From Silanimonas sp. (GTDB taxonomy: Bacteria > Pseudomonadota > Gammaproteobacteria > Xanthomonadales > Xanthomonadaceae), in the NCBI RefSeq assembly GCF_027530345.1, contig NZ_JAPZQK010000004.1, positions 1-64,000 on the forward strand: DNA of 64,000 nt. Reading direction: 5' to 3'. The position numbers and the translations under genes were made by a program. Positions 6,205 through 61,944 of this stretch are shown one piece after another. The notes beneath the pieces were generated by a model. It ran no database searches and was not told the DNA's origin. It saw only the letters and a list, made by a program, of their open reading frames with translations. How positions within the stretch are numbered: position 1 is the stretch's first letter; each line of letters starts with the position of its first letter.

Positions 6205-6679
6205 GGTCCTGATCTCCTCCGGGCTCGAGCCGCCCGGCTGTCGAAACAGGATCGATGCAGACCATCCCGAGCTTGCGAGAGCGAGATGAAAGGCGGCATC
6301 AATGGCGCCGCGGATGCATCAGCGGTTAGTGGCTCGCGAGGATGCGGCGCCGTGGCAACGCGAACGGCGTGAGCAAGGGGCGAAGCCAAGCGGCTTCCGC
6401 CGGTGATGCCGGGGTGATCCATGGCCGGTAAACCGCGGCAGCTGCTCGATGGCGCCGTGCCTTCGCGATCTCACGACCCACCTCACGCGGACGCACTCAT
6501 CCCGAGGTGAGGCCTCTGTGACGCCAGCGAAGGGCGAGTGCCGTGTCGATTGCACCGACCGGGAGATTTCGACGCGCCCTTGCCGCTCGTGGCGGGACAG
6601 GTGACGTTTGTCGCCCGCTGAGGGGCCGCGGGATCGCGTTCCTGTCGGCACAGCGTCCCGGATCGTGAGTCAACGAAGG
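6205..6679. other. Non-coding stretch upstream of the DUF2878 gene
   Basis: About 475 bases without a convincing gene on either strand; the open frames here have no recognisable product and no good start. It presumably holds the promoter of the minus-strand DUF2878 operon. I see no clear -35/-10 pair. It may be decayed coding sequence from a longer lipid-stress cluster. Confidence 0.4.
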
Positions 6680-6702
6680 AGGGCGCCGACGATCGGCGCC
6701 CT
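6680..6702 (-). terminator. Hairpin after the PEGA-like lipoprotein gene
   Basis: AGGGCGCCGA-CGA-TCGGCGCCCT is a perfect 10-bp stem with a 3-base loop, 17 bases past the minus-strand stop codon. The following sequence is only weakly T-rich, so termination may be imperfect. Confidence 0.6.
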
Positions 6703-6718
6703 CTCCTGGCACGTCGGC

Positions 6719-7387
6719 TTAGTGCATCCGGCAGATGCCGGTCCAGCACTCGATCTGGATCTCGCGGCTCGGGCACGTCGTCTTGTAGATCTCACGCCCG
6801 TTCTCCCGGCTCACCAGGGCGACGTCTTCGGAGCACTGGTACTGCTTGGCGAATCGCGCGGCCTCGACGGCATATCCCTCGGCGGGGTCCAGCGAGGTCG
6901 ACGCGACCGCGGGTTCCGGCGCAGAAACCGCTGGTTCGGCGGTCGCGCTGGCCGTGGGCGCTGGCGGCGCGACTGCCACCGGTGCCGTCGATGCTTGGCC
7001 CCGGGAGGACACCAGCTTCACCACCAACGGATTCGGGCGGAGTTCTTTCGTCGCACCGCTCGCCGCGTCGACGCCGATGCCGATCAGGCCGCCGAACAGC
7101 ACGTTGCCCGCCATGCCGACGGCACCAGCGCGCGAATTCGAGGAGACCACCTGCGTCGAAACGCGGTCGTAGCCCTCCTTCTCGATCTCGACGCCGAAAT
7201 TGTTCTTCCGCTTCAACTCGAGCGTGCACGGCGTGGTGCACGTCTGTCCGCTCGACAGCCGGACCTGCGCCCCGGCCGGCTCGCTCTCGACGACCCACGC
7301 TTCCGTCGTGCCGCGGGTGATGGTTGCGCACCCGCTGCCCATCACCAGCATCGTCAATCCCAGTATTGCTCCAACCACCCTTTGCAT
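6719..7387 (-). CDS. PEGA-like lipoprotein of unknown function
   Basis: The protein has 222 residues. It has a lipoprotein signal (lipobox MGSGCAT), then a PEGA-type beta-sandwich with ESEPAGAQVRLSSGQTCTTP and KKEGYDR-like spacing (IEKEGYDRVS). A glycine-rich membrane-seeking segment (AVGMAGNVLFGGLIGIGVDA) follows, then an Ala/Pro linker and a short Cys-containing C-terminal domain (CSEDV, TTCPSREIQIECWTGIC). PEGA domains occur on surface and periplasmic proteins; no specific role can be assigned. The paired cysteines in the tail suggest a disulfide-bonded periplasmic domain. Confidence 0.7.
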   Translation of the reverse strand: MQRVVGAILGLTMLVMGSGCATITRGTTEAWVVESEPAGAQVRLSSGQTCTTPCTLELKRKNNFGVEIEKEGYDRVSTQVVSSNSRAGAVGMAGNVLFGGLIGIGVDAASGATKELRPNPLVVKLVSSRGQASTAPVAVAPPAPTASATAEPAVSAPEPAVASTSLDPAEGYAVEAARFAKQYQCSEDVALVSRENGREIYKTTCPSREIQIECWTGICRMH

Positions 7388-7543
7388 AAGGCCTCCTGGC
7401 CTGTTGAAAAACCGTCATGGCAAGGCTCCGCCGCTGCGCGCCACCAAGGCGCGTGTGCGCTTTTCGCCGTGTTCCCTCGTTGTCCCCGTAATGAACGACG
7501 CGATGCGGCGTGACTCCGTTGCGGCGGACCTCCCCGGTCACCG

Positions 7544-7566
7544 CCCCTGCCGTCGAACGGCGGGGG
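7544..7566 (-). terminator. Hairpin downstream of the Ycf46-like gene
   Basis: CCCCTGCCGT-CGA-ACGGCGGGGG forms a 10-bp stem with one G-U pair, about 70 bases past the minus-strand stop of the AAA ATPase gene. There is no T-tract. Confidence 0.45.
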
Positions 7567-7636
7567 CCATCCGATTCGCTAGGCCGAGCCTATCCGCGAT
7601 TCGGCGATGCAGCCATCCGGGCGTCTGCATCCGTGT

Positions 7637-9124
7637 TCAATCCGCCGCCACGGTCCTCGTGCTCGCCCACTCGCGCAGCGCGTTCACCTGTTCGGCCATC
7701 AGCACGCTCAGGGGACGCGTGTGCTGTATTTCGGCCATCACGTGTTTTGCAGCCATCGGCTCGCCGGCGCCGTGCGCGGCGTACAGCGCGCTGACCACGG
7801 CCTGCTCGATCTCCGCGCCGGAGAAACCTTCGCTCGCTTCAACCAAAGGCGCGAAATCCCAGCCGTCCACGTCCACCTTGCGCCGCTTCAAATGCAAACC
7901 GAGAACGGCCTCGCGCACGTCGGGCTTCGGCAGATCGACGAAGAAGATCTCGTCGAAGCGGCCCTTGCGCAGCAGTTCGGGCGGCAGCTGGTCGATGGCG
8001 TTGGCGGTGGCGACGAGGAACACGCCGCTCTTGTGCTCGGCCATCCAGGTGAGGAAGGTGCCGAGCACGCGCTTGGAAACGCCATCGTCGCTGGTGGATG
8101 CCGCGAGGCCTTTCTCGATCTCGTCGATCCACACCACGCAGGGCGAAAGCTGTTCCGCTGAAGCCAGCGATTCGCGCAAGTTGCGCTCGGTCTCGCCGTG
8201 GTACTTGTTGTAGAGCGAGCCGAAGTCGAGGCGCAGCAGGGGCACGCCGAAGCCGCCGGCCACCGCTTTCGCGGCGAGGCTCTTGCCGCAGCCCTGCACG
8301 CCGAGCAGCAGGATGCCGCGTGGGGAGTCCAATCCCGGCGGCAGCGGTTCGCCACGCAAGCCCGCACCGCGCTGTTCGACCCAGCGCTTGAGCTTGCGCA
8401 GGCCTGCCACGTCGCTGAACTTCGTGGTGTCGGGCTCGTACTGCAGGGTGCCGCCCTTGTTCAGCAGCTCGAACTTCAGCTTGCCGAGCCGCGGCAGGTC
8501 GCTGGCGTCGAGCACGCCGTCGTCGAAGATCAGCTGGCGCACGATGCGCTGCGCATCGACCATCGACAGGCCCTTGATGTTGCGCACCAGCGCCACTTCG
8601 GTCTCGGGGTCGACCACCACGCGCTTGCCGCTGTGCTCGCGGGCGTAGGCCAGCAGCTCGTCGCGCACCATCTTCCGCAGCGCCTTCTCGTCCGGCAGGC
8701 GAAGGCTGAAGCGCACGGCGCGCGATTCCAATTCGGGGGGCAGCTCGATCTTGCCGCCCACCATCACGATCGTGTGCTGCACGCCGTTCTCGGCCTGCAT
8801 CAGTTCGCGCAGCTGGCGCTGGTGGCTGGCGTAGCCGAGGTAGGGGTGGAAATCCAGCAGCAGGTACAACCCCCGCTGGGTGTGGCCGGCCATCGCCCGC
8901 AGGGCACTGCTGGCGTCGGAACCGCCGCGCTCTTCCTGCTCCAAATCCATGTCCAAGCGCACCAGACCCGTCGTGATCGTCCAGCGGTACAGCGGCCGGA
9001 ACAGCTCGGCCAGCAGCCCGCGGAACAGCTCGACCACGCGCGGTTCTTCCGGCGTCTCGATCAGGATGAGCGGCGTTCCGGCGCGCACCAGCGCAGCCAG
9101 GTCCTTGATGTCGTGGGTGGGCAT
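7637..9124 (-). CDS. AAA-family ATPase, Ycf46-like
   Basis: This is a cytoplasmic AAA+ ATPase of about 495 residues. The N-terminal half matches the Ycf46-type region (LVRAGTPLILIETPEEPRV at the start). The AAA module has Walker A GVQGCGKS, Walker B VVWIDEIEK, sensor-1 VFLVATANAI and arginine finger region LLRKGRFDE. Ycf46-like proteins are linked to regulation of carbon uptake in cyanobacteria; in proteobacteria the role is open. ATG at 9124 is used; an in-frame GTG at 9139 is possible and neither has a strong ribosome site. It is divergent from the ParA gene, with about 145 bases between them. Confidence 0.8.
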   Translation of the reverse strand: MPTHDIKDLAALVRAGTPLILIETPEEPRVVELFRGLLAELFRPLYRWTITTGLVRLDMDLEQEERGGSDASSALRAMAGHTQRGLYLLLDFHPYLGYASHQRQLRELMQAENGVQHTIVMVGGKIELPPELESRAVRFSLRLPDEKALRKMVRDELLAYAREHSGKRVVVDPETEVALVRNIKGLSMVDAQRIVRQLIFDDGVLDASDLPRLGKLKFELLNKGGTLQYEPDTTKFSDVAGLRKLKRWVEQRGAGLRGEPLPPGLDSPRGILLLGVQGCGKSLAAKAVAGGFGVPLLRLDFGSLYNKYHGETERNLRESLASAEQLSPCVVWIDEIEKGLAASTSDDGVSKRVLGTFLTWMAEHKSGVFLVATANAIDQLPPELLRKGRFDEIFFVDLPKPDVREAVLGLHLKRRKVDVDGWDFAPLVEASEGFSGAEIEQAVVSALYAAHGAGEPMAAKHVMAEIQHTRPLSVLMAEQVNALREWASTRTVAAD

Positions 9125-9269
9125 TCCGGGGGCGCTCACGGGTAAACAGCCAAGAAGTGTACGGGGCGGCCCGCTTCGTCCGCGCGGGTCGAGCGGCGGG
9201 CCCCGGCCCTGTCCCCCGCCGTCGTCGCCTTGCTACAGTCCCCGGCAGGCTCGACAGGTAGGCGCGCTC

Positions 9270-9902
9270 ATGCAGACGATCCTCGTGGCCAGCTCCAAGG
9301 GTGGTGCCGGCAAGACCACGCTCTCCACCCAGCTCGCCGGGCATTTCGCAGTGGCCGGCAAGGCCACGGTGCTGGTCGATGCCGACCCGCAGGCTTCGTC
9401 CACCCGCTGGTGTGAGAAGCGCGCCGACATGGACGCCGCGGTGCTGCCCATCAACGGCCATTCCCGCGCGTTCCGCAAACAACTGCCCGAGGACGCCGAG
9501 CGCATCGTCATCGACGCCCCGGCCGGCGCCATGGCCGACGACCTCGAGCCCTTCCTCGAGATCGCCGATGTCGTGCTGGTGCCGGTGCTGCCTTCGGCCA
9601 TCGACCTCGAAGCCACCGTGCCTTTCCTGAACACGCTGGCGCAGGTGCCGCGCATCAAGAAGGGCAAGCTGCCGGTCGGCCTCGTGGCGAACCGCGTCAA
9701 GGCCTGGACCTCGGTGAGCCAGCAGGCCATCGAGCAACTGCAGTCGTGGCCCTACCCGCTGGTGGCCCAGCTGCGTGATTCGCAGGCGTATGTGCTGCTC
9801 GCGGCGCTCGGGCGCTGCGTCGACGATTACCGCTCCGAGCAGATGCGCGGCCACCAGGACGATTTCGCGGCCATCTACCGCTGGATCAAGAAGCACACCT
9901 GA
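9270..9902 (+). CDS. Orphan ParA-family ATPase
   Basis: The protein has 210 residues, starting MQTILVASSKGGAGKTTLST with the deviant Walker A motif KGGAGKTT. The LVDADPQASSTRW and IVIDAPAGAMADD motifs follow. ParA/MinD-like ATPases position cargo such as DNA, chemoreceptor arrays or flagella. No parB, parS-like site or replication gene lies beside it, so this is an orphan chromosomal copy, not a plasmid partition system. The predicted nucleotide-binding surface is complete. It is followed 13 bases later by sixA in the same direction. Confidence 0.85.
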   Translation: MQTILVASSKGGAGKTTLSTQLAGHFAVAGKATVLVDADPQASSTRWCEKRADMDAAVLPINGHSRAFRKQLPEDAERIVIDAPAGAMADDLEPFLEIADVVLVPVLPSAIDLEATVPFLNTLAQVPRIKKGKLPVGLVANRVKAWTSVSQQAIEQLQSWPYPLVAQLRDSQAYVLLAALGRCVDDYRSEQMRGHQDDFAAIYRWIKKHT

Positions 9903-9915
9903 CCCAAGGAACCCC

Positions 9916-10392
9916 ATGCGCGACCTGATCCTCCTTCGCCACGCCCACGCCGAGCCCGCACAGCCGGGCCAGTCCGATGCCGACCGCCCGCTCTCCCCGC
10001 GTGGCCAGGCCGAGGCTGAAGCCGCGGCCCAGTGGTTGAAGTCCCACAACGCGAAGCCGACGCGCGTGCTCTGTTCGCCGGCGCGCCGCACCCGCGAGAC
10101 GCTGGAACGCGTCCTCGAAGCCTTGGGCTATACCGAAGTGCGCTACGAGCCGCGCATCTACGACGCCGCCCCCGGCACGCTCATGGCCGTGCTCGACGAG
10201 CACGCCGACATCGACCGCGTCCTGATGGTCGGCCACAACCCGGGCTTCGAGCAGGTGGTGGCGCTGCTGCACAGCGGCATCAGTGGCGATGCGCGGGGCA
10301 TGCCCACCGCCGGCATCGCGCGCCTGAGCCTGCCGGCCGGCGCCGCGCTCGAGCCCGGCATCGGCACGCTCACCCAGTTCTGGTGGCCGTAG
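9916..10392 (+). CDS. sixA: Phosphohistidine phosphatase SixA
   Basis: The protein has 158 residues and belongs to the histidine phosphatase (RHG) superfamily. The catalytic motif LLRHAHAE is at residues 5-12, with the second histidine in VGHNPGFE. SixA removes phosphate from histidine on HPt domains or the PTS-Ntr phosphocarrier. It lacks a signal peptide, so it is cytoplasmic. The final bases overlap the GTG start of the next gene by 10 bases, which suggests coupled translation. Confidence 0.85.
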   Translation: MRDLILLRHAHAEPAQPGQSDADRPLSPRGQAEAEAAAQWLKSHNAKPTRVLCSPARRTRETLERVLEALGYTEVRYEPRIYDAAPGTLMAVLDEHADIDRVLMVGHNPGFEQVVALLHSGISGDARGMPTAGIARLSLPAGAALEPGIGTLTQFWWP

Positions 10393-10976
10393 GCGGACTG
10401 CTGCTTGCCCTTGCGGGAAGTGTGGCGCTCGCCGTGGCGCCGCCGCCCGCAGCCGACACCGGCGAGGCCGCGCCTGCCTGCCGGGGTCGCATCGACGCCG
10501 CCGCCAGCGAAGCCCGCTTCGTCGTCGATGTCCGCTTGCCGATCAAGGCCGAGGGCCGATTCGCTGGCGTGGAAGGCGAGCTCGTGCCCCGGCCGGACGG
10601 GCAGTGCGAAGTGCGTGTCCGCCTGCGCGCCGACACCGTCGAATACTCCGGCCCGGAATGGATGGCCAAGCTCACGCGCTCGCCGGCCTTCCTTGATGCC
10701 GAAACGCACCCCGACGTGGCCTTCGATTCCGCCGAATTCCCCGTGGCGTGGCTGAACGAAGGCGGGTCGATCCGCGGCCGCCTGAGGCTTCGCGGCCGGG
10801 AGCGCCCCGTAGAATTCGCGCTCCGTCCCGCCGAATGCGATACCCCCGGACAGGCTTGCGCGATCCGCGTCAGCGGTGAGGTGAGCCGGCGCGATTTCGG
10901 CATGCAGGCCTACCGCTTCACCGTGAAGGACACCGTCCGCTTCGACTTCGCCATCCGCCTCGAGGCCGCGCCGTGA
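10383..10976 (+). CDS. YceI-like periplasmic protein
   Basis: The protein has about 197 residues, with a signal sequence (VAVGGLLLALAGSVALAVA). A lipid-binding YceI-type barrel follows: DAAASEARFVVDVRLPIKAEG, SPAFLDAETHPDVAFDSAEF, and SGEVSRRDFGMQ near the end. YceI proteins bind polyisoprenoid lipids in the periplasm. The GTG at 10383 is chosen because it begins the signal peptide; the frame stays open further upstream inside sixA. The stop overlaps the GTG of the phospholipase D gene. Confidence 0.8.
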   Translation: MAVGGLLLALAGSVALAVAPPPAADTGEAAPACRGRIDAAASEARFVVDVRLPIKAEGRFAGVEGELVPRPDGQCEVRVRLRADTVEYSGPEWMAKLTRSPAFLDAETHPDVAFDSAEFPVAWLNEGGSIRGRLRLRGRERPVEFALRPAECDTPGQACAIRVSGEVSRRDFGMQAYRFTVKDTVRFDFAIRLEAAP

Positions 10977-12853
10977 GCGCTGCGCCCTCGTGGCCCGGCG
11001 GCACTGCCGCCCGGCGCGTGCGCGCGTGCGCGCTGGCGTTCGCTGTCCTGCTGCTGGCGGCCTGCCAGAGCCTGCCCGCGCCCGAGCGGGCGGCGATCGC
11101 CGCCGAGATGGTCGCCGCGCGGAGCACGGTCGTGGATTGCGCCCTGCCAGAACGCTGCGCGACGCCCTCGAGCTTCCGCGAGGCCGGTATGGCGAAGCTC
11201 GCTGCCTCCACGCCCGAAGCGCCGCGACACGAGCTGGTGCTGCTGGAGCGCGGCCCCGACGCCTTGGCCGTGCGGCTCGCCTTGATCCGCTCGGCGCAGC
11301 AGACCGTCGAACTGAAGAGCTTCATCTTCGAAGCCGACGACAGCGGCCAGCTGGTGCTCGACGCCCTGCTCGATGCCGCCGAGCGCGGGGTGCGCGTGCG
11401 TGTACTGCTCGACCAGCTCTACGGCCTCTCGGAGCCGAACCTGCAGGCGGCGCTGGCCAGTCACCACCGCAACTTCGAGCTGCGCCTGTACAACCCGACC
11501 TTCGACGAGGCGCGCACGCAGCCGCTGCAGTTCGCCGCCGGCATCGTCTGCTGCTTCCGCCGCTTCAACCAGCGCATGCACGGCAAGAACCTCGTGGTGG
11601 ACGACGCCGTGGCCATCACCGGCGGCCGCAACGTGCAGGACCGCTATTTCGACTGGGACCCGGTCTACAACTACCGCGATCGCGACCTGCTGGTGGCAGG
11701 GCCCGCGGCGCGCGCGATGCGCGACGAGTTCGATCTCTTCTGGGATGCCGAACGCAGCGTGCCCGCCGAGGGTCTGGTCGACGTGGCGGAACGCTGGCGC
11801 CGCGACGGCGGGGCCCCGCCCGGGCGGCTGGATTTCCGCGACCGGCTGCACGAGGGCCGCCTGGGCACCATGCGCCAGGCCGCGGCGGACGATGCGGCGC
11901 TGCGCGCGGGCCTGCGCGACGTGACGTTCGACGTCGGGGCGGTGCGCTTCATCGCCGACCTGCCCGAGAAGCACGCCAGCGGCGCGGCGGCGCGGCGCGA
12001 CGCCAGCCGGGTCATGCGCGCCATCATCGCCGGCGCCCGCGAGGACGTGCTGCTGCAGACGCCCTACCTGGTGATGTCGCGGCCGGCGCGCGAGCTGTTC
12101 CAGGACCTGCAGGAGCGGGACGACCCGCCGACGGTGCGCGTTTCCACGAACTCGTTGGCGGCGACGGATGCCTTCCCCGTCTACGCGATGAGCCACAAGT
12201 ACAAGCGCGCCTACCTGCGTGAGCTCGGCTTCCGCATCCACGAGTACAAGCCCTATCCGACCGACACGCCGATCGACCCGGCCTCGACGGGCGCGCTCGG
12301 CGCACAGGCGGCGGCCGACTTCCCGCTGTTCGGTTCCGCCACCCGGGGCGGCAACGACGGCCCCGTCCCCCTGCGCCGCGCCGGGGTGCGGGTGGGCCTG
12401 CATTCGAAGTCGATCGTCATCGACCGCCGGATCGGCATCGTCGGCACCCACAACTTCGACCCCCGCTCCGACCACTGGAACACCGAGAGCCTGGTGGTGG
12501 TGGAGGACGCCGCCTTCGCCGACGCGCTCGCGGACGCCATCGAACGCGACATGGCCCCGGAGAACGCCTGGCTGATCGCCCCGCGCGCCAAGCCACCCCT
12601 GCTCTCCGGGCTGAGCTACAGCCTCGGCAAGCTGTCCGAGGCGCTGCCGGTCTTCGACCTGTGGATCTGGCCCTTCCCCTACGCCAGGAGCTACGCGCTG
12701 AGGCCGGGCTGCGAGCCCCTGCCCTGGGGCGACCCGCGCTTCTTCGAATGCTGGGAGGACGTGGGCGATTTCCCGGAGGTCGAGGTGGGCAGCAAGCGCA
12801 TCTACACCCGCATCATCACGGGCTTCGGCGCGGGCCTGACGCCGATCTTGTGA
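10973..12853 (+). CDS. Phospholipase D-like lipoprotein (cardiolipin synthase family)
   Basis: The protein has 626 residues. It has a lipoprotein signal with lipobox LLAAC (Cys near residue 26) and two HKD motifs: HGKNLVVDD about residues 203-211 and HSKSIVIDR about residues 477-485. Each is followed by the expected GG(R/T)N or GTHNFDPRS segment. Two HKD motifs make one PLD active site, as in cardiolipin synthases ClsB/ClsC. The lipoprotein anchor and length fit envelope phospholipid processing; cardiolipin synthesis itself is an inference. The GTGA overlap with the yceI-like gene indicates one operon. Confidence 0.8.
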   Translation: MSAAPSWPGGTAARRVRACALAFAVLLLAACQSLPAPERAAIAAEMVAARSTVVDCALPERCATPSSFREAGMAKLAASTPEAPRHELVLLERGPDALAVRLALIRSAQQTVELKSFIFEADDSGQLVLDALLDAAERGVRVRVLLDQLYGLSEPNLQAALASHHRNFELRLYNPTFDEARTQPLQFAAGIVCCFRRFNQRMHGKNLVVDDAVAITGGRNVQDRYFDWDPVYNYRDRDLLVAGPAARAMRDEFDLFWDAERSVPAEGLVDVAERWRRDGGAPPGRLDFRDRLHEGRLGTMRQAAADDAALRAGLRDVTFDVGAVRFIADLPEKHASGAAARRDASRVMRAIIAGAREDVLLQTPYLVMSRPARELFQDLQERDDPPTVRVSTNSLAATDAFPVYAMSHKYKRAYLRELGFRIHEYKPYPTDTPIDPASTGALGAQAAADFPLFGSATRGGNDGPVPLRRAGVRVGLHSKSIVIDRRIGIVGTHNFDPRSDHWNTESLVVVEDAAFADALADAIERDMAPENAWLIAPRAKPPLLSGLSYSLGKLSEALPVFDLWIWPFPYARSYALRPGCEPLPWGDPRFFECWEDVGDFPEVEVGSKRIYTRIITGFGAGLTPIL

Positions 12854-12912
12854 TTGACGCCGCCACGCCCCCCGCCTAGGCTCCCGGCGATCCCTCACAC
12901 CCAGCGCCAGCC

Positions 12913-13521
12913 ATGTCCTTGACCCTGACGATCCAACTCTCCGACCGCGACCTCGAGCACTTCACCAAGGCCATCGAGGCCGCGCGCGTCGCCGCCGAAC
13001 ACAAGTCGGCCGCCGACGTCATGGCTGCCGCCACCGCCCTGCTCGCCACGGCGCAGGCCAGCCAGCTGCCGGACTTCATCGCCGACCGCCTCGACCAGCT
13101 CGACACCCTCGTGGCGATGGTCAAGGACGAGGGCTGGGCGCTGCCGGAATCGGATGCCAAGCGCGTCATCGGCGCCCTGGCCTACTTCGCCGACCCGAAG
13201 GACATCATCCCGGACCACGTGCCGGTGCTGGGCTTCCTCGATGACGCCATCGCCATCGAACTGTGCGTGCGCGAACTGGGCCACGAGTTCGAGGCCTACG
13301 ACGATTTCTGCGAATACCGCCAGGCCGAGGCCGAGCGCCGCGGCGTGCAGCCGGCCACGGTCGGCCGCGCCGACTGGCTGGAAGGCCGCCGCGAAGAGCT
13401 GCAGAACCGCATGCATCGCCGCCGCGAGCGTGAGGAAGGCCAGGGCTACGGCAGCAGCTCGGGCTACGGCCGTCGCAGCTACCTGAAGAACGTCTGGCGC
13501 CCCAGCACCTACGTTCGCTGA
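12913..13521 (+). CDS. YkvA/DUF1232 family protein
   Basis: The protein has 202 residues. The DUF1232 core is ALAYFADPKDIIPDHVPVLG followed by FLDDAIAIELCVREL, about residues 92-128. A charged, Gly/Ser/Tyr-rich C-terminal tail follows (EGQGYGSSSGYGRRSYLK). Family members are small, often membrane-associated proteins of unknown role. Here the flanking sequence is mostly helical and soluble. It starts at an ATG 60 bases after the phospholipase D gene. Confidence 0.8.
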   Translation: MSLTLTIQLSDRDLEHFTKAIEAARVAAEHKSAADVMAAATALLATAQASQLPDFIADRLDQLDTLVAMVKDEGWALPESDAKRVIGALAYFADPKDIIPDHVPVLGFLDDAIAIELCVRELGHEFEAYDDFCEYRQAEAERRGVQPATVGRADWLEGRREELQNRMHRRREREEGQGYGSSSGYGRRSYLKNVWRPSTYVR

Positions 13522-54343: not shown

Positions 54344-55480
54344 TCAGAGTCGGCCGCCGGCCATCGTCCAGCGCAGCGCGAGGGTGTCGCGGTCGAGCAG
54401 GATGAGGTCGGCATCGAGGCCCGGTGCGATGCGGCCCTTGTGCGCGAGTCCCCAGACCGCCGCGGGAGAGGACGTCGCCGCGGCGAGCGCGGTGGCGAGG
54501 GGCAGCCGGTGCAGCTCGACGGCCTCGCGGACGCTGGACAGCAGGCTGCTGATCGGGGCGACTTCGAGCGAGACCAGCCGTCCTTGCGCATCGAAGTGCG
54601 GCAGGCTGGCCTGGCCGTCGGAGCTCATCGTCAATCGTTCGATCGGCAAGCCGGCGGCGAGCGCGTCGGCCAAGGCGAGCGCGGCGGGAACTTCCCCCGC
54701 GGCGACGAAATCCGGCGTGCTGCTGGTGGTGAAATCGATGCTGCCACCTTCGCGGACGAAGGCGAAACCGTCCGCGAGCAGGCGGGCGTTCCGGTTCACG
54801 TGCGTGGGATGCCACTGCTTGATCGGCACCGGCCAACGCGAACTCGCCTCGCGCAGCAACGCCAGCCCTTCGGGCGCTTCACCGCAGTGCACGAGCACGG
54901 TGCCCGACTTGCCGGCGAGCATGCCGCCGACGCGCGCGTCCGACGCGAGCCGTGCCAGCTCTGCCGCACTGGGCTGCGAGCCGCGGTGGTCGGCGATGGC
55001 GATCTCGCCGAGGCCGATCATCTCCGGAATGAAGGCGAGGTCGCCGCGGACACTGCCGGTGAGCGTGACCGGTGGGACCTGGTAGGACCCGGTGAGCGTG
55101 TAGGCCGACAGGCCGCTGGCGGCCAGCGCCCGCGCGCAGGCCAGCAGGTCGGCGTGGCTGCGCGTGACGTCGTCGGTGCCGAGTGCGCCGATCATCGTCG
55201 TCACGCCCGCGGCGAGCGCCGTGGACGCTGCGAGCGGCGGCATGCGCGTGGCGAAACCGCCTTCGCCACCGCCGCCGCCGAAGTGCACGAGACCATCGAC
55301 GAGGCCGGGGCAGAGCCAATGCCCGGCGGCATCGATGATCCGCACCGGCACGCCGCAGCCGCGCGGATCGAGGCCCGTGCCCATCGCCAACACACGGCCG
55401 TTCGCGACCAGCACATCGCCCCGCCCGGCGGGTGCCGGCGTCATCAACTCCGCGTCGCGGATCCACAGCAGTTCAGACAT
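54344..55480 (-). CDS. iadA: Isoaspartyl dipeptidase-like amidohydrolase (IadA)
   Basis: The protein has 378 residues with no signal peptide, so it is cytoplasmic. The match to IadA is strong: GGGGGEGG (catalytic Glu loop), GVTTMIGALGTDDVTR, LTGSYQVPPVTLTGSVRGD, GKSGTVLVHCGE (carbamyl-Lys and His), PTHVNRN (His) and SSDG (Asp). IadA cleaves beta-aspartyl dipeptides such as beta-Asp-Arg from cyanophycin. The metal motif expected as HVH reads LVH (Leu64, His66), so one zinc ligand is missing; activity may be altered. The start ATG at 55480 overlaps the stop of the permease gene by 8 bases, so the two are coupled. Confidence 0.85.
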   Translation of the reverse strand: MSELLWIRDAELMTPAPAGRGDVLVANGRVLAMGTGLDPRGCGVPVRIIDAAGHWLCPGLVDGLVHFGGGGGEGGFATRMPPLAASTALAAGVTTMIGALGTDDVTRSHADLLACARALAASGLSAYTLTGSYQVPPVTLTGSVRGDLAFIPEMIGLGEIAIADHRGSQPSAAELARLASDARVGGMLAGKSGTVLVHCGEAPEGLALLREASSRWPVPIKQWHPTHVNRNARLLADGFAFVREGGSIDFTTSSTPDFVAAGEVPAALALADALAAGLPIERLTMSSDGQASLPHFDAQGRLVSLEVAPISSLLSSVREAVELHRLPLATALAAATSSPAAVWGLAHKGRIAPGLDADLILLDRDTLALRWTMAGGRL

Positions 55481-56900
55481 AACCGATCCCGACGGCAAGG
55501 GCCACGGTGAGGGCGGAGAGCGCCATCAGCAGCAGCATGAAACGGAAGATGATGCGCACCCACGCGAGCCAGCCGAGGCCGGCCACGCCGATGGCACCCA
55601 TCATGGCGGCGGAGGTGGGGATCACCAGGTTGGTGAACCCGTCGCCGAGTTGGAAGCACAACACGCTGACCTGCTTGCTGACCCCGACGAGCTCGCCGAG
55701 GCCCGCCATCAAGGGCATGGTGATCGTGGCCTGGGCGCTGCCGGAGCTCACGAAGAAGTTGAACACCGACTGCACCGCGAGCATGCCCCACGCAGCGACC
55801 AGTTCGGGCATGCCGGCGATGGCGCTGCCCATGCTGTAGAGCGCGGTGTTGAGCACGGACGGCGCGTGCGGGTCGCTGCCGCCGAGGATGCCGAGCATGC
55901 CCTTGGCCACGGCGATCACCAGCACCACCGGCACGAGGGCGCGCACGCCATCGGTGAACGCCTGCACCGCGCCATTGGCGCTGATGCGGCCGCCAAGCAC
56001 CGCGGCGACACCGGCGAACAGGCCGAGCGCGAAGAACTGCGTCGCGATCTCGGCGATGTAGTAGCCGGCGACGGTGACGCCCCAGACGATCCACGCGACC
56101 GTGGCCAGCGTCGCCCACAGCACGGCATGGTCGACCCAGCCGAGGGGCGCGCTCGCCGTGCCGGCGGTGGCCGTCGCGTCTCCCGCATCCGTCGCCTCCG
56201 GTGCACGGCGGTGCGCCGTCGCGTAACGCAGGGCGAAGGCCAGCCCCACCGCGGTGAAGCCCGCCCACATCGCCATCCGGAACGGCGCGCCCGAGAGCAG
56301 TGGCAATCCGGCGATGCCCTGCGCCACGGCGACGCTGAAGGGGTTCATCCACGAGGTGCCGAAGCCGATCTGGCTGGCCATGTAGGTCACCATCACGCCG
56401 GTCTCCGGCGGGTAGCCGAGGCGGCGGATCAGCGGCAGCAACAGGGCGAGGAAGGCGATGGTCTCCTCGCCCATGCCGAACACCGCGCCGCCGGTGGAGA
56501 AGGCGACGAACAGCACGGCGAGCAGCAGGCGCGGGCGATGGCCGAAGCGCGCGATGAGGCGCTTAAGCCCGTTGTCGATGGCGCCACTGGCCTGCACCAG
56601 GCCGAAGGCGCCGCCGACGGTGAGCACGAAGGCGATCACGCCGATCGCGGCGCCGTTGCGGCTGCCCGACGTGAAGCCATCGAAGAACAGGTTGAGCACG
56701 CCAGGATGGTCGGCGTCGCTGGAGAACAGGCGCAGCCCGAGCGCGGACTCGCCGGGCTGGAAGCTGGCCAGCGACATCGGCTGACCGGGCGCGAAGAAGC
56801 CGGCAGGCACGAAGGGCACGATCGCTGCCAGCACGAGGGCGACGGCGAGCAGGACCAGCAGCGTGTCGGGCGCGCGCGATGGCGCGGCGGTGGAAGTCAT
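55473..56900 (-). CDS. YfcC-family inner-membrane permease
   Basis: The protein has 475 residues and about twelve transmembrane helices. Family motifs are FSTGGAVFGMGEETIAFLAL, MVTYMASQIGFGTSWMNPFS, FNFFVSSGSAQATITMPLMA and QLGDGFTNLVIPTSAAMMG. YfcC and related DcuC/AbgT-superfamily carriers move amino acids, dipeptides or dicarboxylates. Overlap with the dipeptidase gene suggests it imports the dipeptide that IadA splits, or exchanges arginine. This role is inferred from context. It is 147 bases after the TonB-dependent receptor gene, with a hairpin in between. Confidence 0.82.
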   Translation of the reverse strand: MTSTAAPSRAPDTLLVLLAVALVLAAIVPFVPAGFFAPGQPMSLASFQPGESALGLRLFSSDADHPGVLNLFFDGFTSGSRNGAAIGVIAFVLTVGGAFGLVQASGAIDNGLKRLIARFGHRPRLLLAVLFVAFSTGGAVFGMGEETIAFLALLLPLIRRLGYPPETGVMVTYMASQIGFGTSWMNPFSVAVAQGIAGLPLLSGAPFRMAMWAGFTAVGLAFALRYATAHRRAPEATDAGDATATAGTASAPLGWVDHAVLWATLATVAWIVWGVTVAGYYIAEIATQFFALGLFAGVAAVLGGRISANGAVQAFTDGVRALVPVVLVIAVAKGMLGILGGSDPHAPSVLNTALYSMGSAIAGMPELVAAWGMLAVQSVFNFFVSSGSAQATITMPLMAGLGELVGVSKQVSVLCFQLGDGFTNLVIPTSAAMMGAIGVAGLGWLAWVRIIFRFMLLLMALSALTVALAVGIGYV

Positions 56901-56995
56901 TCGCAAGTCCGGGACGAAGGGGCGAAGCGCGACGCGCCGTGGCCGCGTTGGGCGGCCACGGTAGCGCAGGAAAGGTGGGGCGTCCGTGCCCCGAA

Positions 56996-57019
56996 GGCCC
57001 ACCGGTGCGCCGGTGGGCC
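56996..57019 (-). terminator. Hairpin after the TonB-dependent receptor gene
   Basis: GGCCCACCGG-TGCG-CCGGTGGGCC is a perfect 10-bp stem 28 bases past the receptor stop on the minus strand. With little T-richness after it, partial read-through to the permease gene is possible. Confidence 0.65.
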
Positions 57020-57047
57020 GTCCAAGCGAGGGATCAGGCGCGGCGGA

Positions 57048-59846
57048 TCAGAAGCGGCCGATCCAGTTCAACGTGACGAAGCGGCCCATCGCGTCGTGGT
57101 TGAACGTGTCGACCCACGCGCTGGCGCCGAGGGCACGCGGCGGATCGCGGTCGGTGAGGTTCTTCACCTGCAGCGAGACGCGGTGCGTTTCGTTGATGTT
57201 CCAGCCCCACGAGGCGTTGAACGTGGTCCACGAGGCCACGCGCGCCGTCGTCGCGATCGCCGCCGGGTCGAAGCGGAAATCGTCGTAGTACGAGCCGGTG
57301 TAGCTGGCCCAGAGGGCGGCGTCGAAGTCCTCGCTGGTCCAGTCCAGCGCCACCGTGCCGCGCCACTTCGGATAGCGGTACTCGCCATTCAGCTCGACGA
57401 GGCGCTGGCCGCCGACGCAGGCTCCATCGCCGCGCAGCGGTGCGACCTGCGGCGAGCACGATTCCGAGCGCTCGAACGAGAGCACGCGGGTGGCGTCGAT
57501 CGACAGGTCGAGGCGGCCGCCGAGGAAGTCCTCGGCGAGGCCGTGGTCGATGGCGAGGTCCCAGCCGTTGGTGCGCTGGACGCCGATGTTCTGCAGCGGC
57601 GCGAACACTTCGCCGGTCGACACGCGGCCGACACCGCCGCTGGCGGTTTCGATGCCCGGCGCGTTGACCGGACGCGGGCGGCTGCCATCCGCGAAGGTGT
57701 AGATCAGCGACGGGTTGGTGAGCGCGGCACGCAGCAGGCCGAAGTAGTCGACGTCGACGGTGTTCTTCTGGTCGAAGTTCCAGTAGTCGATGCTGACGGT
57801 GGTGCGTTCCAGCGGCGACCACACCATGCCGGCATTCCACGCCTCCGAAGTCTCCGGCTGGAGATCCGGATTGGCGAGTACCTGGCTCAGGATGGTCGGG
57901 CGGCCCGAACGGCTGCCGCACCAGTTGGCGAAGAACTCGCTGCCCGAGGCGCAGGGCAGGGTGAACGAGGCCGCGGTGGTGCCGCTGCCCGCTTGCGCCA
58001 GCGACGGTGCGCGGAAGCCGGTGTTCCAGCCGGCGCGGAAGACCAGCGCGTCGCTCGGGCGGAAGCGCAGGCCAACGGACGGATTGAAGTCGCCGCCGAA
58101 GTCGGAGTAGTGGTCGTAGCGGCCGGCGAGACGAACGTCGAACGTGTCGGTGAAGGGCAGCAGCGATTCGACGAACACGGCCGACGCATTGCGATCAGCA
58201 TTCGCCGACTTCGAGCCGAAGCCGAACACGCCGGGCTGGCCGGTGAGGCGGTTCACCTCAGCGAGCGGCGACGGACGGTCGGCGATGTCCTCGCGGCGGC
58301 CTTCGAGACCGACGGCCCAGGCGATGTCGCGGTCGCCGATGGCGCCGGCGATGCCGTTGAACTTGAGGTCGGCGCTCAGCGTGGTCGATTCACCGTTGCG
58401 CGGCACCGTGTCGCGGAGCAGCCGCATCACGTTGGGATCCTGCGTGGCTTGGCCGCCGAACGGGTTGTACCAGAGGCCGCCCGTGGTCGGCGTACAGGTC
58501 GTGGTGCCATCGGCGCAGAGGCGGCCGCGGAGCGCGGCGAGCGTGCGCAGGCGGTTGTAGATGCCACCGCTGGCGATCTGTTCGGACTCGCTGCGGCCGT
58601 ACCCGACGGCGGCTTCCCAGCCCCAGTCGTCGTTGAGCTCGCCGCGCAGGCCGGCGAGCGCGCGCCAATTCTTCGTCTCCACGTCGATCTGGCGCTCGTC
58701 GGGGAAGCGGCCCCAGCCGACGATGTCCTGCGTGGCGCCGAGCCCACCGGCCAGCAGGCGGGTGCGAAGTTCGGCCGGCATGTTCGGGTGGTTGAACGCG
58801 ATGGTGGCCTGCGACCACGGCGCCGGCGCGCTGGTGGCGAAGCTCTCGTTGCGCTGCAGCTGCACTTCGCTGAAGAAGGCGAGGCTGTCGCCAAGGCGCG
58901 CGTTGAACGTGCCGTAGAGGCCGAGCTGCTCGAGCTGCGGGTCGAAGGCGGTGTAGTCGCTGCGGTCGACGGCGCAATAGGCGCCGAGGCTGCCGAGCGG
59001 GAAGCCCGGGCGGCCGTCGAAACGCTGGCCCGACGGGCAGCTGGCTTCGACGAAGTCGTCGCGGCTGAAGCTGCCCCAGTTGTAGCTCGGGAAAATGCCC
59101 TGCTGCGACGGCACGCGCTCGTTGGCGGTGATCGCGCGGTCGCGGTTGTAGAAGCCGTTGCGGCGGAAGGCGTCGATCACGACCAAGCCTTCGACCGTGT
59201 CGGTGCTGAAGCCAGCCAACAGGTTGGCGTTGAGCTTGGCTTCGTCGCCGTCGGCGGTCGAATCGCCGATGCTGACGGCGGTGCGCACGCCGTCGAAGCT
59301 CTGGCGCAGCACGACGTTGATGACGCCGGCGACGGCGTCGGCGCCGTAGATGGCCGAGGCGCCGGCGGACAGCACTTCGATGCGCTCGACGGCCGCCATC
59401 GGGATGGCGTTGATGTCGACGAAGTTCTCCGAGCGCACGCCGTTCGAGAACGAGCTGGCAGCGACGCGACGGCCGTTGACCAGCGTCAGCGTGGAGCCGG
59501 CGCCGAGGCCGCGCAGCGAGGCGCCGGCCATGCCGGCCGGCGAATCGGCCTGCAGCGCGCCGGAGGTGGCGGTGCTGAAGTTGCCGGTGCCGCCACCGGT
59601 CTCGGAGATCAGCTTCAGCACGTCGCCGATCGAGGCGAGGCCGAGGCGTTCGATCTTGACCGCGTCGATGACCTGCACCGGCTGCGCTTCGGCGAGATCG
59701 ACGCCACGCAGGTTGGTGCCGGTGACGGTGACGGCGTCGAGGGTCTTGGCGTCGTCGGTTTCGGCGGCAGGCGACTGGGCCTGCGCGGCAACGGACGTGG
59801 CGAGGAGCAGCGCGATCGTGGCGCTGAGAGGCTTCTTGGACAGCAT
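57048..59846 (-). CDS. TonB-dependent outer-membrane receptor
   Basis: The protein has 932 residues with a signal peptide (LSATIALLLATSVAAQAQ). The plug domain has LDAVTVTGTNLRGVDLAEAQ, GASLRGLGAGSTLTLVNGRR and AVERIEVLSAGASAIYGADA with VAGVINVVLR. A long barrel ends in LNWIGRF with a terminal Phe. It imports a large or scarce substrate using TonB energy. AGGA lies 9 bases before the ATG at 59846. It is divergent from the cyanophycinase gene and upstream of permease and dipeptidase genes. I infer it takes up cyanophycin fragments; siderophore or other peptide uptake cannot be excluded. Confidence 0.9.
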   Translation of the reverse strand: MLSKKPLSATIALLLATSVAAQAQSPAAETDDAKTLDAVTVTGTNLRGVDLAEAQPVQVIDAVKIERLGLASIGDVLKLISETGGGTGNFSTATSGALQADSPAGMAGASLRGLGAGSTLTLVNGRRVAASSFSNGVRSENFVDINAIPMAAVERIEVLSAGASAIYGADAVAGVINVVLRQSFDGVRTAVSIGDSTADGDEAKLNANLLAGFSTDTVEGLVVIDAFRRNGFYNRDRAITANERVPSQQGIFPSYNWGSFSRDDFVEASCPSGQRFDGRPGFPLGSLGAYCAVDRSDYTAFDPQLEQLGLYGTFNARLGDSLAFFSEVQLQRNESFATSAPAPWSQATIAFNHPNMPAELRTRLLAGGLGATQDIVGWGRFPDERQIDVETKNWRALAGLRGELNDDWGWEAAVGYGRSESEQIASGGIYNRLRTLAALRGRLCADGTTTCTPTTGGLWYNPFGGQATQDPNVMRLLRDTVPRNGESTTLSADLKFNGIAGAIGDRDIAWAVGLEGRREDIADRPSPLAEVNRLTGQPGVFGFGSKSANADRNASAVFVESLLPFTDTFDVRLAGRYDHYSDFGGDFNPSVGLRFRPSDALVFRAGWNTGFRAPSLAQAGSGTTAASFTLPCASGSEFFANWCGSRSGRPTILSQVLANPDLQPETSEAWNAGMVWSPLERTTVSIDYWNFDQKNTVDVDYFGLLRAALTNPSLIYTFADGSRPRPVNAPGIETASGGVGRVSTGEVFAPLQNIGVQRTNGWDLAIDHGLAEDFLGGRLDLSIDATRVLSFERSESCSPQVAPLRGDGACVGGQRLVELNGEYRYPKWRGTVALDWTSEDFDAALWASYTGSYYDDFRFDPAAIATTARVASWTTFNASWGWNINETHRVSLQVKNLTDRDPPRALGASAWVDTFNHDAMGRFVTLNWIGRF

Positions 59847-60204
59847 GGCGGTTTCCTCAGGGTCGACGGACGACCGCGCCACGGGCGCAGTCGTCAGGGT
59901 CTGGTCTTGGGGCATGGATGGCCCCGATGCACGGCGCCGCCGTCGAACGACGGCAACGCGAACGCAACCTCGCTTCGCGCCATTGCGGCACGAAGGAGCT
60001 CAGCCGATGGGATCTACTCGTCCCACCACTCGCTGAGATAGAAAGTCCGGGCGATGTGCCGGATGTGGTTGCGTGGCTTGGGCATTTCGGTGGACCGGAA
60101 ACGTGCTGCTTTCATACTTTGTTCATTTCCACGCCGTCAAGTGCCGACGGATGAAACCTGCTAAACATCGGCGCCTTCCGTCGCTGATCGGGGTGGTTTC
60201 GGAC
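59847..60204. other. Divergent regulatory region between receptor and cyanophycinase genes
   Basis: About 360 bases without a gene, carrying promoters for both strands. The notable feature is a perfect inverted repeat GCCGTCG-AA-CGACGGC at 59939-59954, about 93 bases before the receptor start, a possible regulator site. No NtrC-like or ArgR-like box was recognised. Confidence 0.45.
59939..59954. promoter_or_regulatory. Palindrome, candidate operator
   Basis: GCCGTCG-AA-CGACGGC is a 7-bp perfect dyad in the divergent region. The GC-rich background makes chance dyads common, so this is tentative. Confidence 0.3.
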
Positions 60205-61944
60205 ATGGATTCACTGTTTTTGCGCGCTGCTTTGCTGGCCTTCACGGGGATCGGTAGCGTCGCTTGGGCGTCGGTCCCGGCCGACGGGCCGACGCGCAGC
60301 CTGCTGCTGGCGGGCGGTGCGCTGGCGGTTTGTTCCGACCTCTCGCCACGTGCGTGCGCGACCGCACCGAGCGACGCGACCCGCGGCCCCGCGCGCTTCC
60401 GCGTCGACGACGCTGGCATCGCCCGTGCGCTCGATCCGGCCCTGTGGTCCTTGCCCGGTGCGCCCTCGCGCGACGACGTGGCGGCGATGCTCGCGCAGGG
60501 GCAACGCGCTTTGGACGCGACGGGTGGAAACGCTGGGGACGTGTTCGATGCAGCGCGCCTGGAATCGGCATTCGCCGAGGCCTGCCTTGGTGGTGGTTGC
60601 GCCGAAACGGACCGCCGCCGGCCGTGGTCGGTGCTGCTGGACGTCGAACGCGCGGCGGTGATGGCCGCGCTGGAAGTGCCCCAGCGCACGGAGGGTGGCG
60701 CGCGCCCGCTCGAACGCGCACTGCCGGCGCGCAGCCGCGTGCGCGGCGGTGTCGATGTGCTGCGTGCTTTCGTCGCGGAGGCGCAGGCGCGCACCACGGG
60801 ACGGCCGAAGATCGCCGTGGTGACGGCCTCGGGCTTCGACCCGATGGATGCGGTGGATTTCTACGTCGACGTGTTCCGCGAGCTCGGCGCCGACGCGGTG
60901 TGGTGGCCGGTGGATGCCGCAGCGGCCGCGGCGCGGTTCGAGTCGGGGGATTGCGCGGCGTTGCCGCGACTTCGCGTCGAACGCCTCCGGCTTCCCAACC
61001 GCGAGGCCGTGTACCCCGACCTCGCCGATTATCAGCGCGCGCACTGCGCCTCGCAGCCGGCCCTGATGCTGCAGGTGCAGGGCGTTTTCTTCGCCGGGGG
61101 TGACCAGTGGCGGCATCGGCAGGCCTTCGTGCGGGCCGATGATTCGCCGAACGACTGGCTGCTGGAACTGCGTCAGGCGCATGCGGAAGGCCGGGTGGTC
61201 GTCGGTGGCACCAGCGCGGGAGCGGCCGTGCAGAGTGGCTCGTGGATGCTCGGCAATGGCGATGTCGAAGCTGCCGTGTCGCGCGCCGCACGCGTGGCGC
61301 CGCCGCCGGAGCCGGGCTGCACGCGTGGCGGGCGCTGCGGCGGTCTGCCCGAAGATGTGCTGACGCTGTGGCCGGCCGGTGGGCTGCGGCTGGCGGAAGA
61401 CGCGATCGTCGACACCCACTTCTCGGAGCGCGCGCGCGAGCTGCGACTGTTGATGGCGATGCAGGCCGCCGACGCGCGCTGGGGCTATGGGGCGGACGAG
61501 ACGTCGGCTCTGCTGTTGCGCGAGCGCGACGGTCGTCGCGAGATCCGCGCGGTGGGTGAATCCGGCGGTTGGGTGATGCGCCGCGATGCGGCGATGCGCG
61601 ACGAGGTCGAGGCCTGGTACCTCGCGCCGGGCGCCGTGCTGGTGGTCGAGCCCTCGGCCGAGGGTGGCGAGCGCGTCAGCCTCGTCCTCGACGCGGAGGC
61701 CTCGCGCGCCACGCGCCAGCGTGTGCCGCTGCCTGACTCCGCGTTCGAGGCGGGGGCGCTGCGCACGGCCGCCCAGCGTCTGGCGTGGCGTTGCGGAACC
61801 AGCGTGCAGCTGCCCGCGGCGCCGGGCGTGGCGGAACTCCGTTGCGCGGAGGGGGCGCGAGGTTGGAAGGGAGCGGGCGGCATGCAGGGCGTTGGTCCCC
61901 TGCGTCTGCGTTTCGTTCGCGAAGGCATTGCCGTTCCGCGTTGA
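60205..61944 (+). CDS. cphE: Exported cyanophycinase-family serine hydrolase
   Basis: The protein has 579 residues with a signal peptide (MDSLFLRAALLAFTGIGSVA, ending in WA). The cyanophycinase (peptidase S51-like) core has KIAVVTASGFDP, VFFAGGDQWRH, the nucleophile elbow VVGGTSAGAAV (Ser337), and IVDTHFSERARELRLLMAM. These are the hallmarks of extracellular cyanophycinases (CphE), which release beta-Asp-Arg dipeptides from the storage polymer cyanophycin. It is longer than typical CphE, with an N-terminal region and a C-terminal extension of unknown role. ATG at 60205 starts the signal peptide. Neighbouring receptor, permease and dipeptidase genes fit the same pathway. Confidence 0.85.
   Translation: MDSLFLRAALLAFTGIGSVAWASVPADGPTRSLLLAGGALAVCSDLSPRACATAPSDATRGPARFRVDDAGIARALDPALWSLPGAPSRDDVAAMLAQGQRALDATGGNAGDVFDAARLESAFAEACLGGGCAETDRRRPWSVLLDVERAAVMAALEVPQRTEGGARPLERALPARSRVRGGVDVLRAFVAEAQARTTGRPKIAVVTASGFDPMDAVDFYVDVFRELGADAVWWPVDAAAAAARFESGDCAALPRLRVERLRLPNREAVYPDLADYQRAHCASQPALMLQVQGVFFAGGDQWRHRQAFVRADDSPNDWLLELRQAHAEGRVVVGGTSAGAAVQSGSWMLGNGDVEAAVSRAARVAPPPEPGCTRGGRCGGLPEDVLTLWPAGGLRLAEDAIVDTHFSERARELRLLMAMQAADARWGYGADETSALLLRERDGRREIRAVGESGGWVMRRDAAMRDEVEAWYLAPGAVLVVEPSAEGGERVSLVLDAEASRATRQRVPLPDSAFEAGALRTAAQRLAWRCGTSVQLPAAPGVAELRCAEGARGWKGAGGMQGVGPLRLRFVREGIAVPR

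Follow-up and report, generated by a model that had tools for sequence, protein, structure and literature searches.

The locus described here lies within a 64,000-nucleotide stretch of a Silanimonas sp. contig, which is called the window in what follows. A homologue of the S51 cyanophycinases on the plus strand is divergent from a TonB-dependent receptor gene on the minus strand, and downstream of the receptor lie yfcC and then iadA. The initial annotation had proposed these four genes as a set, and every ORF was recovered at the position it gave. The receptor (57048 to about 59846, minus strand) has plug and beta-barrel domains that both score above the Pfam cut-off. The YfcC/DcuC-family inner-membrane permease (ORF extent 55473 to 57002, minus strand) scores 515.2 bits against NF008611 (cut-off 500); its ORF overlaps that of iadA, and its true start is probably downstream of the ORF start. 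The IadA-family isoaspartyl dipeptidase (54344 to 55498, minus strand) scores 389 bits against TIGR01975, for which the cut-off is 331.25. A short ORF, referred to as the leader ORF (60014 to 60085, minus strand), ends in FYLSEWWDE followed by TAG, and a hairpin is predicted in the 48 nucleotides immediately 3' of that stop (59966 to 60013, minus strand; z of -2.39 against shuffles). Both the leader ORF and a lost metal ligand in IadA, described below, were absent from the initial annotation. A search for an empty site in the same genus turned up nothing that matched the flanking DNA well in genomes G001, G002, G004, and G005.

The hydrolase runs on the plus strand from the ATG at 60205 to a stop at 61944 and is 579 amino acids long, with extra N- and C-terminal regions. 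Its N-terminus, judged by eye, resembles a signal peptide, so the protein is predicted to be exported. Numbering from that ATG puts the elbow serine at position 337, the number given in the initial annotation. The motifs GGDQW, GGTSAGAA, and VDTHFSERAR are kept, and Ser337, His405, and Glu432, which align with the catalytic triad of cyanophycinases, are conserved in at least 90% of 14 hydrolase rows. The modelled fold (mean pLDDT 88) is that of a cyanophycinase: rows 1 to 6 of the Foldseek matches are cyanophycinases and rows 7 to 9 a pseudo-CphB, with a best E value of 1.6e-11. The only PDB sequences matching better than E 0.001 are also cyanophycinases. A Pfam scan of the hydrolase returned no family at E 0.001, and its 76.5 bits to TIGR02069 fall under the curated cut-off of 126.6, which counts against the scavenging reading. 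This shortfall from the equivalog cut-off would suit a more general S51 peptidase acting on other beta-aspartyl or Asp-rich peptides, as would the promiscuity that Sharon 2023 describes for the IadA and IaaA enzymes characterised from cyanophycin clusters. Against such substrates, cyanophycinases are the nearest relatives of the hydrolase in both fold and sequence, ranking above dipeptidase E.

The scavenging proposal had been staked in advance on the receptor and permease being conserved beside the hydrolase, and it withstood that comparison. The hydrolase adjoins a receptor of the same clade in 28 genomes, and the full four-gene set is present in 20 of them, which come from three families of the organism's order and from two families beyond that order; three named Pseudoalteromonas replicons carry the full set as well. 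These counts exclude three duplicate rows (L036, equal to L058; L096, equal to L038; and L169, equal to L041), and they are not independent since the rows are related. An intact iadA next to the hydrolase and receptor in 24 of the 28 loci, and an arginase-family gene near the locus on two of the three Pseudoalteromonas replicons, also argue against a substrate other than cyanophycin, which is distinctly unlikely. The wider co-occurrence of the four families held in part, for the pairing is not fixed. Among 24 hydrolase-bearing genomes sampled from the order, 12 have the receptor beside the hydrolase and the other 12 have no high-scoring receptor adjoining it, which counts against the scavenging reading; of these latter cases, L171 has no upstream sequence left and the remaining 11 have 1.5 to 10.5 kb. 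Also counting against it, yfcC is missing and iadA kept in four loci (L159, L162, L163, and L167), and neither gene was found 3' of the receptor in L041 and L157. Several of the genome searches, including those of the order sample and of the out-of-order receptors, scored at most two to three candidates per genome. Among plasmid records, three of the 18 with a receptor match and both of the two with a hydrolase match were examined.

By sequence score, the receptor is a distinct clade. In its own genome it scores 1625 bits, versus 175 at the next place. Receptors outside the order that score about 640 bits or above lie within such a locus, and 14 of 14 examined at 344 to 533 bits lie outside one. 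Counting against the reading preferred below are some low-scoring receptors (312 to 363 bits) on the same stretch as yfcC, iadA, or a hydrolase in L095, L103, L158, and L160, and a 1270-bit receptor in G038 that adjoins a hydrolase yet has no leader. In P. xiamenensis, a receptor elsewhere on the replicon has none of the other locus genes among those listed nearby.

The isoaspartyl dipeptidase was correctly assigned to its family, as the TIGR01975 score indicates, but it is not a canonical IadA, one zinc ligand having been lost. H68 of E. coli IadA, the first His of the HxH motif and a Zn ligand (Sharon 2023), is replaced by Leu in 24 of 24 locus IadAs (Leu70 in the window protein). The binuclear zinc site (H68, H70, K/E162, H201, and H230) is therefore incomplete, with the other four positions kept. 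Apart from this replacement, the locus enzyme is like the canonical ones (E. coli 1onw and Leucothrix mucor 8dqn) in passing the family cut-off and in ten other active-site positions, which are identical in 47 of 47 IadA rows. The window IadA might be inactive, which counts against the reading preferred below. His-type IadAs of relatives are all (23 of 23) in genomes with a cyanophycin synthetase. The IadA tree leaves out three fragments (two from the frameshifted L042 and one weak L167 match) as well as L203 to L208, six rows that were assessed by motif alone. A His-to-Leu change with the remaining active site intact poses a question of one-metal versus two-metal catalysis.

Cyanophycin is a nitrogen store in cyanobacteria and other bacteria, and the organism could in principle be turning over its own polymer. 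The initial annotation noted no cyanophycin synthetase in the window, and the genome as a whole bears this out, its best match reaching 83.6 bits against a cut-off of 850. The clustering of putative cyanophycinase, isoaspartyl dipeptidase, and transporter genes without a synthetase, all recognised as homologues, is what would be expected of a cyanophycin utilization locus. Turnover of endogenous cyanophycin draws some support from the 5 of 16 locus genomes tested that also carry a synthetase above the cut-off (G057, G124, G130, G142, and G585). It is nevertheless extremely improbable, given the lack of a synthetase above the cut-off in the window genome, a receptor of an outer-membrane family, and the signal-like N-terminus of the hydrolase. 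The synthetase-bearing relatives with His-type IadA also argue against it, since 22 of the 23 encode a short homologue of cyanophycinase within the same stretch, in a different arrangement.

A short ORF is found immediately 5' of the receptor in all 28 loci, with the tail [FYW]YLSEW[WF][DN]E followed by a stop. In the window it has 23 codons from the nearer ATG and 33 from an in-frame upstream ATG, its start being uncertain. Three more copies precede PPC-domain S51 cyanophycinase homologues rather than receptors, and the three named Pseudoalteromonas four-gene loci, which lie outside its defining set, all have the leader. In L253, the stricter regular expression matched a second leader copy only and the looser one matched the copy before the receptor. 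A genome-wide search of 78 hand-picked genomes found the leader in 23 of 23 locus genomes, 22 of them already known as carriers, versus 2 of 55 others. EWWDE followed by a stop occurs in 2 of 369 genomes of the class, one of the two being this locus. The leader had no match in NCBIfam, and a Pfam match (E 0.056), far under the family cut-off, was rejected as chance. A text search of the literature for the leader tail returned nothing related, and no regulatory leader appeared in the titles and abstract openings of literature on cyanophycin and leader peptides.

The leader is a short conserved ORF directly 5' of a pathway gene, with residues conserved up to the stop, as in arrest peptides. Its Leu and Ser codons differ among copies while the residues stay constant. 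The stops are TAG in 21 copies, TAA in 9, and TGA in none, whereas TGA ends 26 of 36 ORFs in the window; UAG and UAA are both read by RF1. In single-sequence folds compared with shuffles, the mean z just 3' of the leader stop is -1.37, versus -0.02 in later control windows. Varying synonymous codons, the lack of TGA stops, and post-stop folding stronger than in controls together give the leader a profile like that of regulatory leader peptides of the TnaC kind. It is like TnaC and SpeFL (PMC8429421) in being a short leader before a metabolic operon, with stalling at termination as the model. The likeness is one of profile, and TnaC as described there ends in UGA, whereas the locus leaders end in UAG or UAA.

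The short ORF might instead encode a functional microprotein of a scavenging locus, such as a trans-acting peptide with a membrane or regulatory role. Conservation of residues is by itself compatible with either reading. When seven leader regions were folded as an alignment with RNAalifold, no common hairpin emerged 3' of the stop, and neither a terminator nor a Shine-Dalgarno sequence could be assigned to the leader; a scan of the intergenic region for sigma-70 promoters and terminators found no promoter-like site and one terminator-like site, at chance level. These results count against a cis-acting leader. A microprotein is rather unlikely all the same, as only the nine residues preceding the stop are conserved across loci, TGA is never used, and folding after the stop exceeds that of control windows. 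Moreover, all 34 copies examined sit directly before a cyanophycin-degradation gene, and G007 and P. xiamenensis have distinct leader copies before distinct genes.

The preferred reading, which is fairly probable, is that of a cyanophycin-scavenging locus with outer-membrane uptake and leader-peptide control; its scavenging part is supported by the conservation of the locus, the distinct receptor clade, and the absence from the genome of a synthetase above the cut-off. The exported cyanophycinase homologue would cut foreign polymer to beta-Asp-Arg, or would shorten it. Polymer, oligomer, or dipeptide would then be carried over the outer membrane by the TonB-dependent receptor, YfcC would move the dipeptide or arginine over the inner membrane, and the modified IadA would cleave beta-Asp-Arg to Asp and Arg. 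The leader peptide of about 23 residues would be translated ahead of the receptor operon and control it: in response to a signal derived from cyanophycin, be it arginine, ornithine, or beta-Asp-Arg, the ribosome would stall at the UAG or UAA stop of the leader, which would allow expression of the downstream genes. The balance is about even for the more specific proposal, namely that the leader is a new family of ligand-sensing arrest peptides, stalling at an RF1-read stop on a cyanophycin breakdown product and controlling the receptor-yfcC-iadA operon as well as the cyanophycinase genes with a PPC domain that stand apart from it, while the IadA of the locus is a specialised form whose metal site has changed.

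Outer-membrane import of cyanophycin had been put forward as a new idea in the initial annotation, but the general idea had been published before (Tang 2012; Ben Hania 2017, cited in Sharon 2023). From the adjacency of a cyanophycinase gene in Citromicrobium sp. JLT1363, cyanophycin was proposed as the substrate of a TonB-dependent transporter (Tang 2012; PMC3400609), an argument like the one made here. That proposal concerns a single example, and the passage presenting it mentions no iadA, yfcC, or leader, whereas conservation was tested for the present locus. A cyanophycin utilization locus is also described in the Bacteroidota, in Salinivirga cyanobacteriivorans (Ben Hania 2017, cited in Sharon 2023). 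Unlike the locus outlined for that organism, the present one pairs a proteobacterial TonB-dependent receptor with a YfcC permease, and it has a leader ORF. The Bacteroidota locus is reportedly PUL-like. The leader ORF and the loss of the IadA ligand go beyond the published general idea of scavenging.

An uptake system conserved in proteobacteria would reveal how heterotrophs living near cyanobacteria harvest cyanophycin, and the leader tail is a strong sequence marker of genes for cyanophycin scavenging. If the leader does stall ribosomes on arginine, ornithine, or beta-Asp-Arg, it would add a new member to the nascent chains that sense nutrients.

The DNA between the S51 cyanophycinase homologue (the hydrolase, forward strand) and the divergent genes on the reverse strand, which encode a TonB-dependent receptor, YfcC, and IadA, carries a short leader ORF. 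Alignment of this intergenic DNA from five loci gave an ungapped block encoding the ORF on the receptor strand, located at 60014-60085 (-) in the window and ending in FYLSEWWDE-TAG. In loci without the WW form, the tail reads WFDE or WFNE instead. The leader is present in 28 of 28 loci, and its length depends on the start chosen; with scripted starts, it is 23 or 24 codons in 19 of 30 cases and 25-48 in the others. Over the last nine residues of the 30 leaders, variation is limited to F/Y/W, W/F, and D/N at three positions. Leu is written with four codons and Ser with both AGC and TCN, and fixed residues with varying codons argue, at the level of sequence, that selection acts on the peptide and not only on the DNA.

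The leader also lies upstream of the receptor in all three Pseudoalteromonas loci kept out of its definition, and three annotated records of this genus list no gene at its position. The held-out named records were taken from a plasmid collection, and by annotation all four genes are present in P. xiamenensis, P. shioyasakiensis SDCH90, and Pseudoalteromonas sp. THAF3. In the fetched stretch of P. shioyasakiensis A316, for which the gene table is incomplete, there is a cyanophycinase with no listed receptor, yfcC, or iadA and no leader. An arginase-family gene lies nearby in SDCH90, THAF3, and A316.

The pattern LSEW[WF][DN]E-stop was scanned across 78 hand-picked genomes, 23 with the locus and 55 others. 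It occurs in all 23 locus genomes, with a single match in each except G007 (two), and in two of the 55 without the locus (G120 and G065). Since the leader had previously been seen in 22 of the 23, the scan adds only its uniqueness and its rarity elsewhere. The G120 match reads FWEWLNE and was discarded as chance; the one in G065 is a real copy. A shorter pattern, EWWDE-stop, covers the WW form only and was found in two of 369 genomes of the class, once at the window locus and once in an unrelated place.

The additional copies precede a different kind of S51 gene. In G065, the leader is followed by a PPC-domain S51 protein and then by yfcC, and second copies precede a PPC-S51 protein in G007 and a second, PPC-bearing S51 protein in P. 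xiamenensis. These proteins score 72.6 to 96.8 bits, under the cut-off of the cyanophycinase model TIGR02069. Because extra copies stand before PPC-S51 genes, the leader tracks the pathway rather than a single gene. There is a counter-case, G038, in which a 1270-bit receptor adjoins the hydrolase but no leader is present. The G065 pathway itself is in two parts, with a Leu-type iadA (defined below) and a more distant receptor on contig C3 (L095) and the leader, PPC-S51 gene, and yfcC on contig C2 (L251).

All four ORFs reported by the initial annotation were found in their places. The window IadA and YfcC score above NCBIfam cut-offs, and the receptor has plug and barrel domains. The hydrolase, 579 aa from the ATG at 60205, has an N-terminus that by eye resembles a Sec signal. 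It retains the cyanophycinase motifs; its score against the cyanophycinase model is sub-threshold. Among PDB sequences, the cyanophycinases 3en0, 7uqw, and 7uqv alone match it at better than E 0.001. For an AlphaFold2 model (14 sequences, mean pLDDT 87.9), structure matches 1-6 are cyanophycinases and 7-9 pseudo-CphB, followed by dipeptidase E. Named relatives at 40% identity or more come from Silanimonas, Lysobacter, Arenimonas, Pseudomarimonas, Alkalisalibacterium, and unnamed Lysobacteraceae. A homologue in G020 (L051, 4077-5603) has GIGAGA instead of GTSAGA and no DTHF and is probably inactive; that genome also has a His-type iadA and a cyanophycin synthetase. In a Sphingobacteriia MAG (L046, 8578-12613), a His-type iadA is adjoined by two hydrolase homologues, apparently a Bacteroidota cyanophycin cluster.

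The initial annotation would have been refuted by a receptor and permease that are not conserved beside the hydrolase in relatives. A survey using whole-genome searches, fetched stretches, and HMMs built from the close set did not refute it: the hydrolase is divergent from a receptor of the locus clade in 28 genomes, and 20 of these loci are complete, running hydrolase, then receptor, yfcC, and iadA. Among the eight incomplete loci, four keep iadA and have no yfcC (L159, L162, L163, and L167), and two show neither gene past the receptor (L041 and L157, the latter with only about 1.6 kb remaining). The other two are L161, which is cut, and L042, which is frameshifted and has no yfcC. The receptor is damaged in three of the 28, ending at a contig edge (L161), frameshifted (L042), or interrupted by a stop (L205). 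The whole locus looks decayed in L042 (Alkalisalibacterium limincola, 5650-11730), where matches to iadA, the receptor, and the hydrolase are each broken across frames, but the leader is intact. In L203 (G910, 5083-13264), the hydrolase sits between two locus-clade receptors, one on each side. In G003, the nearest relative, the window's flank right of the hydrolase is separated by about 30 kb (contig C38, 50920-81747), which suggests an insertion or rearrangement.

The hydrolase is rare and patchily distributed: at E 1e-12 it occurs in 3 genomes of a class sample of 369, and at E 1e-20 in 24 of the 398 sampled from the order. A locus-clade receptor adjoins it in 12 of the 24 (G000, G028, G057, G063, G124, G130, G142, G538, G573, G585, G621, and G634) but not in the remaining 12, so the hydrolase also occurs alone, and the four-gene set, though strongly conserved, is not universal. 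In 10 of the 24, no receptor was seen on the fetched stretches, one of which (L171) has no remaining upstream sequence; in G140 and G146, the hydrolase adjoins yfcC and a distant receptor (344-348 bits) lies elsewhere on the stretch. In three order relatives, L164 (G630), L166 (G598), and L173 (G594), the hydrolase is near none of the other genes and has no leader.

The receptor clade is distinct. Its profile gives 1625 bits for the window receptor and 175 bits for the runner-up in the same genome, and 20 of 398 genomes in a phylum sample reach E 1e-100. Outside the order, all fetched receptors scoring about 640 bits or more are within the locus, and the 14 at 344-533 bits lie on fetched stretches that lack the hydrolase, yfcC, and iadA. 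Within the order, receptors of 312-363 bits share a stretch with at least one other locus gene in L095, L103, L158, and L160. The nearest solved receptors match mostly in the plug, so structure gives no reading of substrate.

Another feature of the locus is the metal site of IadA. In E. coli IadA, zinc is bound by H68, H70, H201, H230, and carboxylated K162 (Sharon 2023). The window IadA has Leu at the H68 position and keeps the remaining ligands, with Glu at the K162 position, as in Leucothrix mucor. Leu is found in 24 of 24 locus IadAs, in all three from Pseudoalteromonas, and in five beyond the defined locus (L089, L095, L103, L105, and L108). Among 47 sequences, one type has His in 24 of 24 and the other Leu in 23 of 23, and the Leu-type proteins are monophyletic (FastTree support 0.84, midpoint-rooted). 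Ten other active-site positions are invariant in all 47 (H70, E77, T106, Y137, K/E162, R169, H201, H230, R233, and D285 in E. coli numbering). The discriminating positions listed include no newly fixed His, Cys, or Asp in the Leu clade. The change of a single ligand in an otherwise intact site points to a function altered rather than lost.

The absence of a cyanophycin synthetase, initially claimed for the window, holds for the whole genome (99.96% complete), where the best score against model TIGR02068 is 83.6 bits versus a cut-off of 850. Among 149 relatives, 36 IadAs are above cut-off, 23 His-type and 13 Leu-type. A synthetase above cut-off accompanies all 23 His-type proteins; of the Leu-type genomes, five have one, seven have none at E 1e-60, and one has sub-threshold partial matches.

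Outer-membrane import of cyanophycin had been put forward as novel, but PMC3400609 already proposes cyanophycin use via a receptor from gene adjacency in Citromicrobium. A utilization locus with a transporter is also cited in Sharon 2023. With both in print, the locus is not wholly new and is a variant on a known cyanophycin utilization theme. No such peptide turned up in literature searches on the leader tail, on cyanophycin together with leader peptide, and on receptor together with leader peptide and upstream ORF; these covered few subscription papers, and within their reach the leader is undescribed.

Leaders end in 21 TAG, 9 TAA, and no TGA, to which Pseudoalteromonas adds four TAG; TGA ends 26 of the 36 window ORFs passing a crude GC3 filter. 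Folding of the 48 nt after the stop, compared with shuffles, gave a mean z of -1.37 (n = 30 related rows; p under 0.05 in 10), an effect weak in many GC-rich members, versus -0.02 (n = 90) for control windows further downstream. As described in PMC8429421, TnaC and SpeFL undergo metabolite-induced stalling at their own stop codons, and TnaC stalling blocks Rho, which permits transcription of the operon. Purely by analogy, a similar logic is proposed for the leader, in which the ribosome would stall at its stop codon in response to a metabolite.
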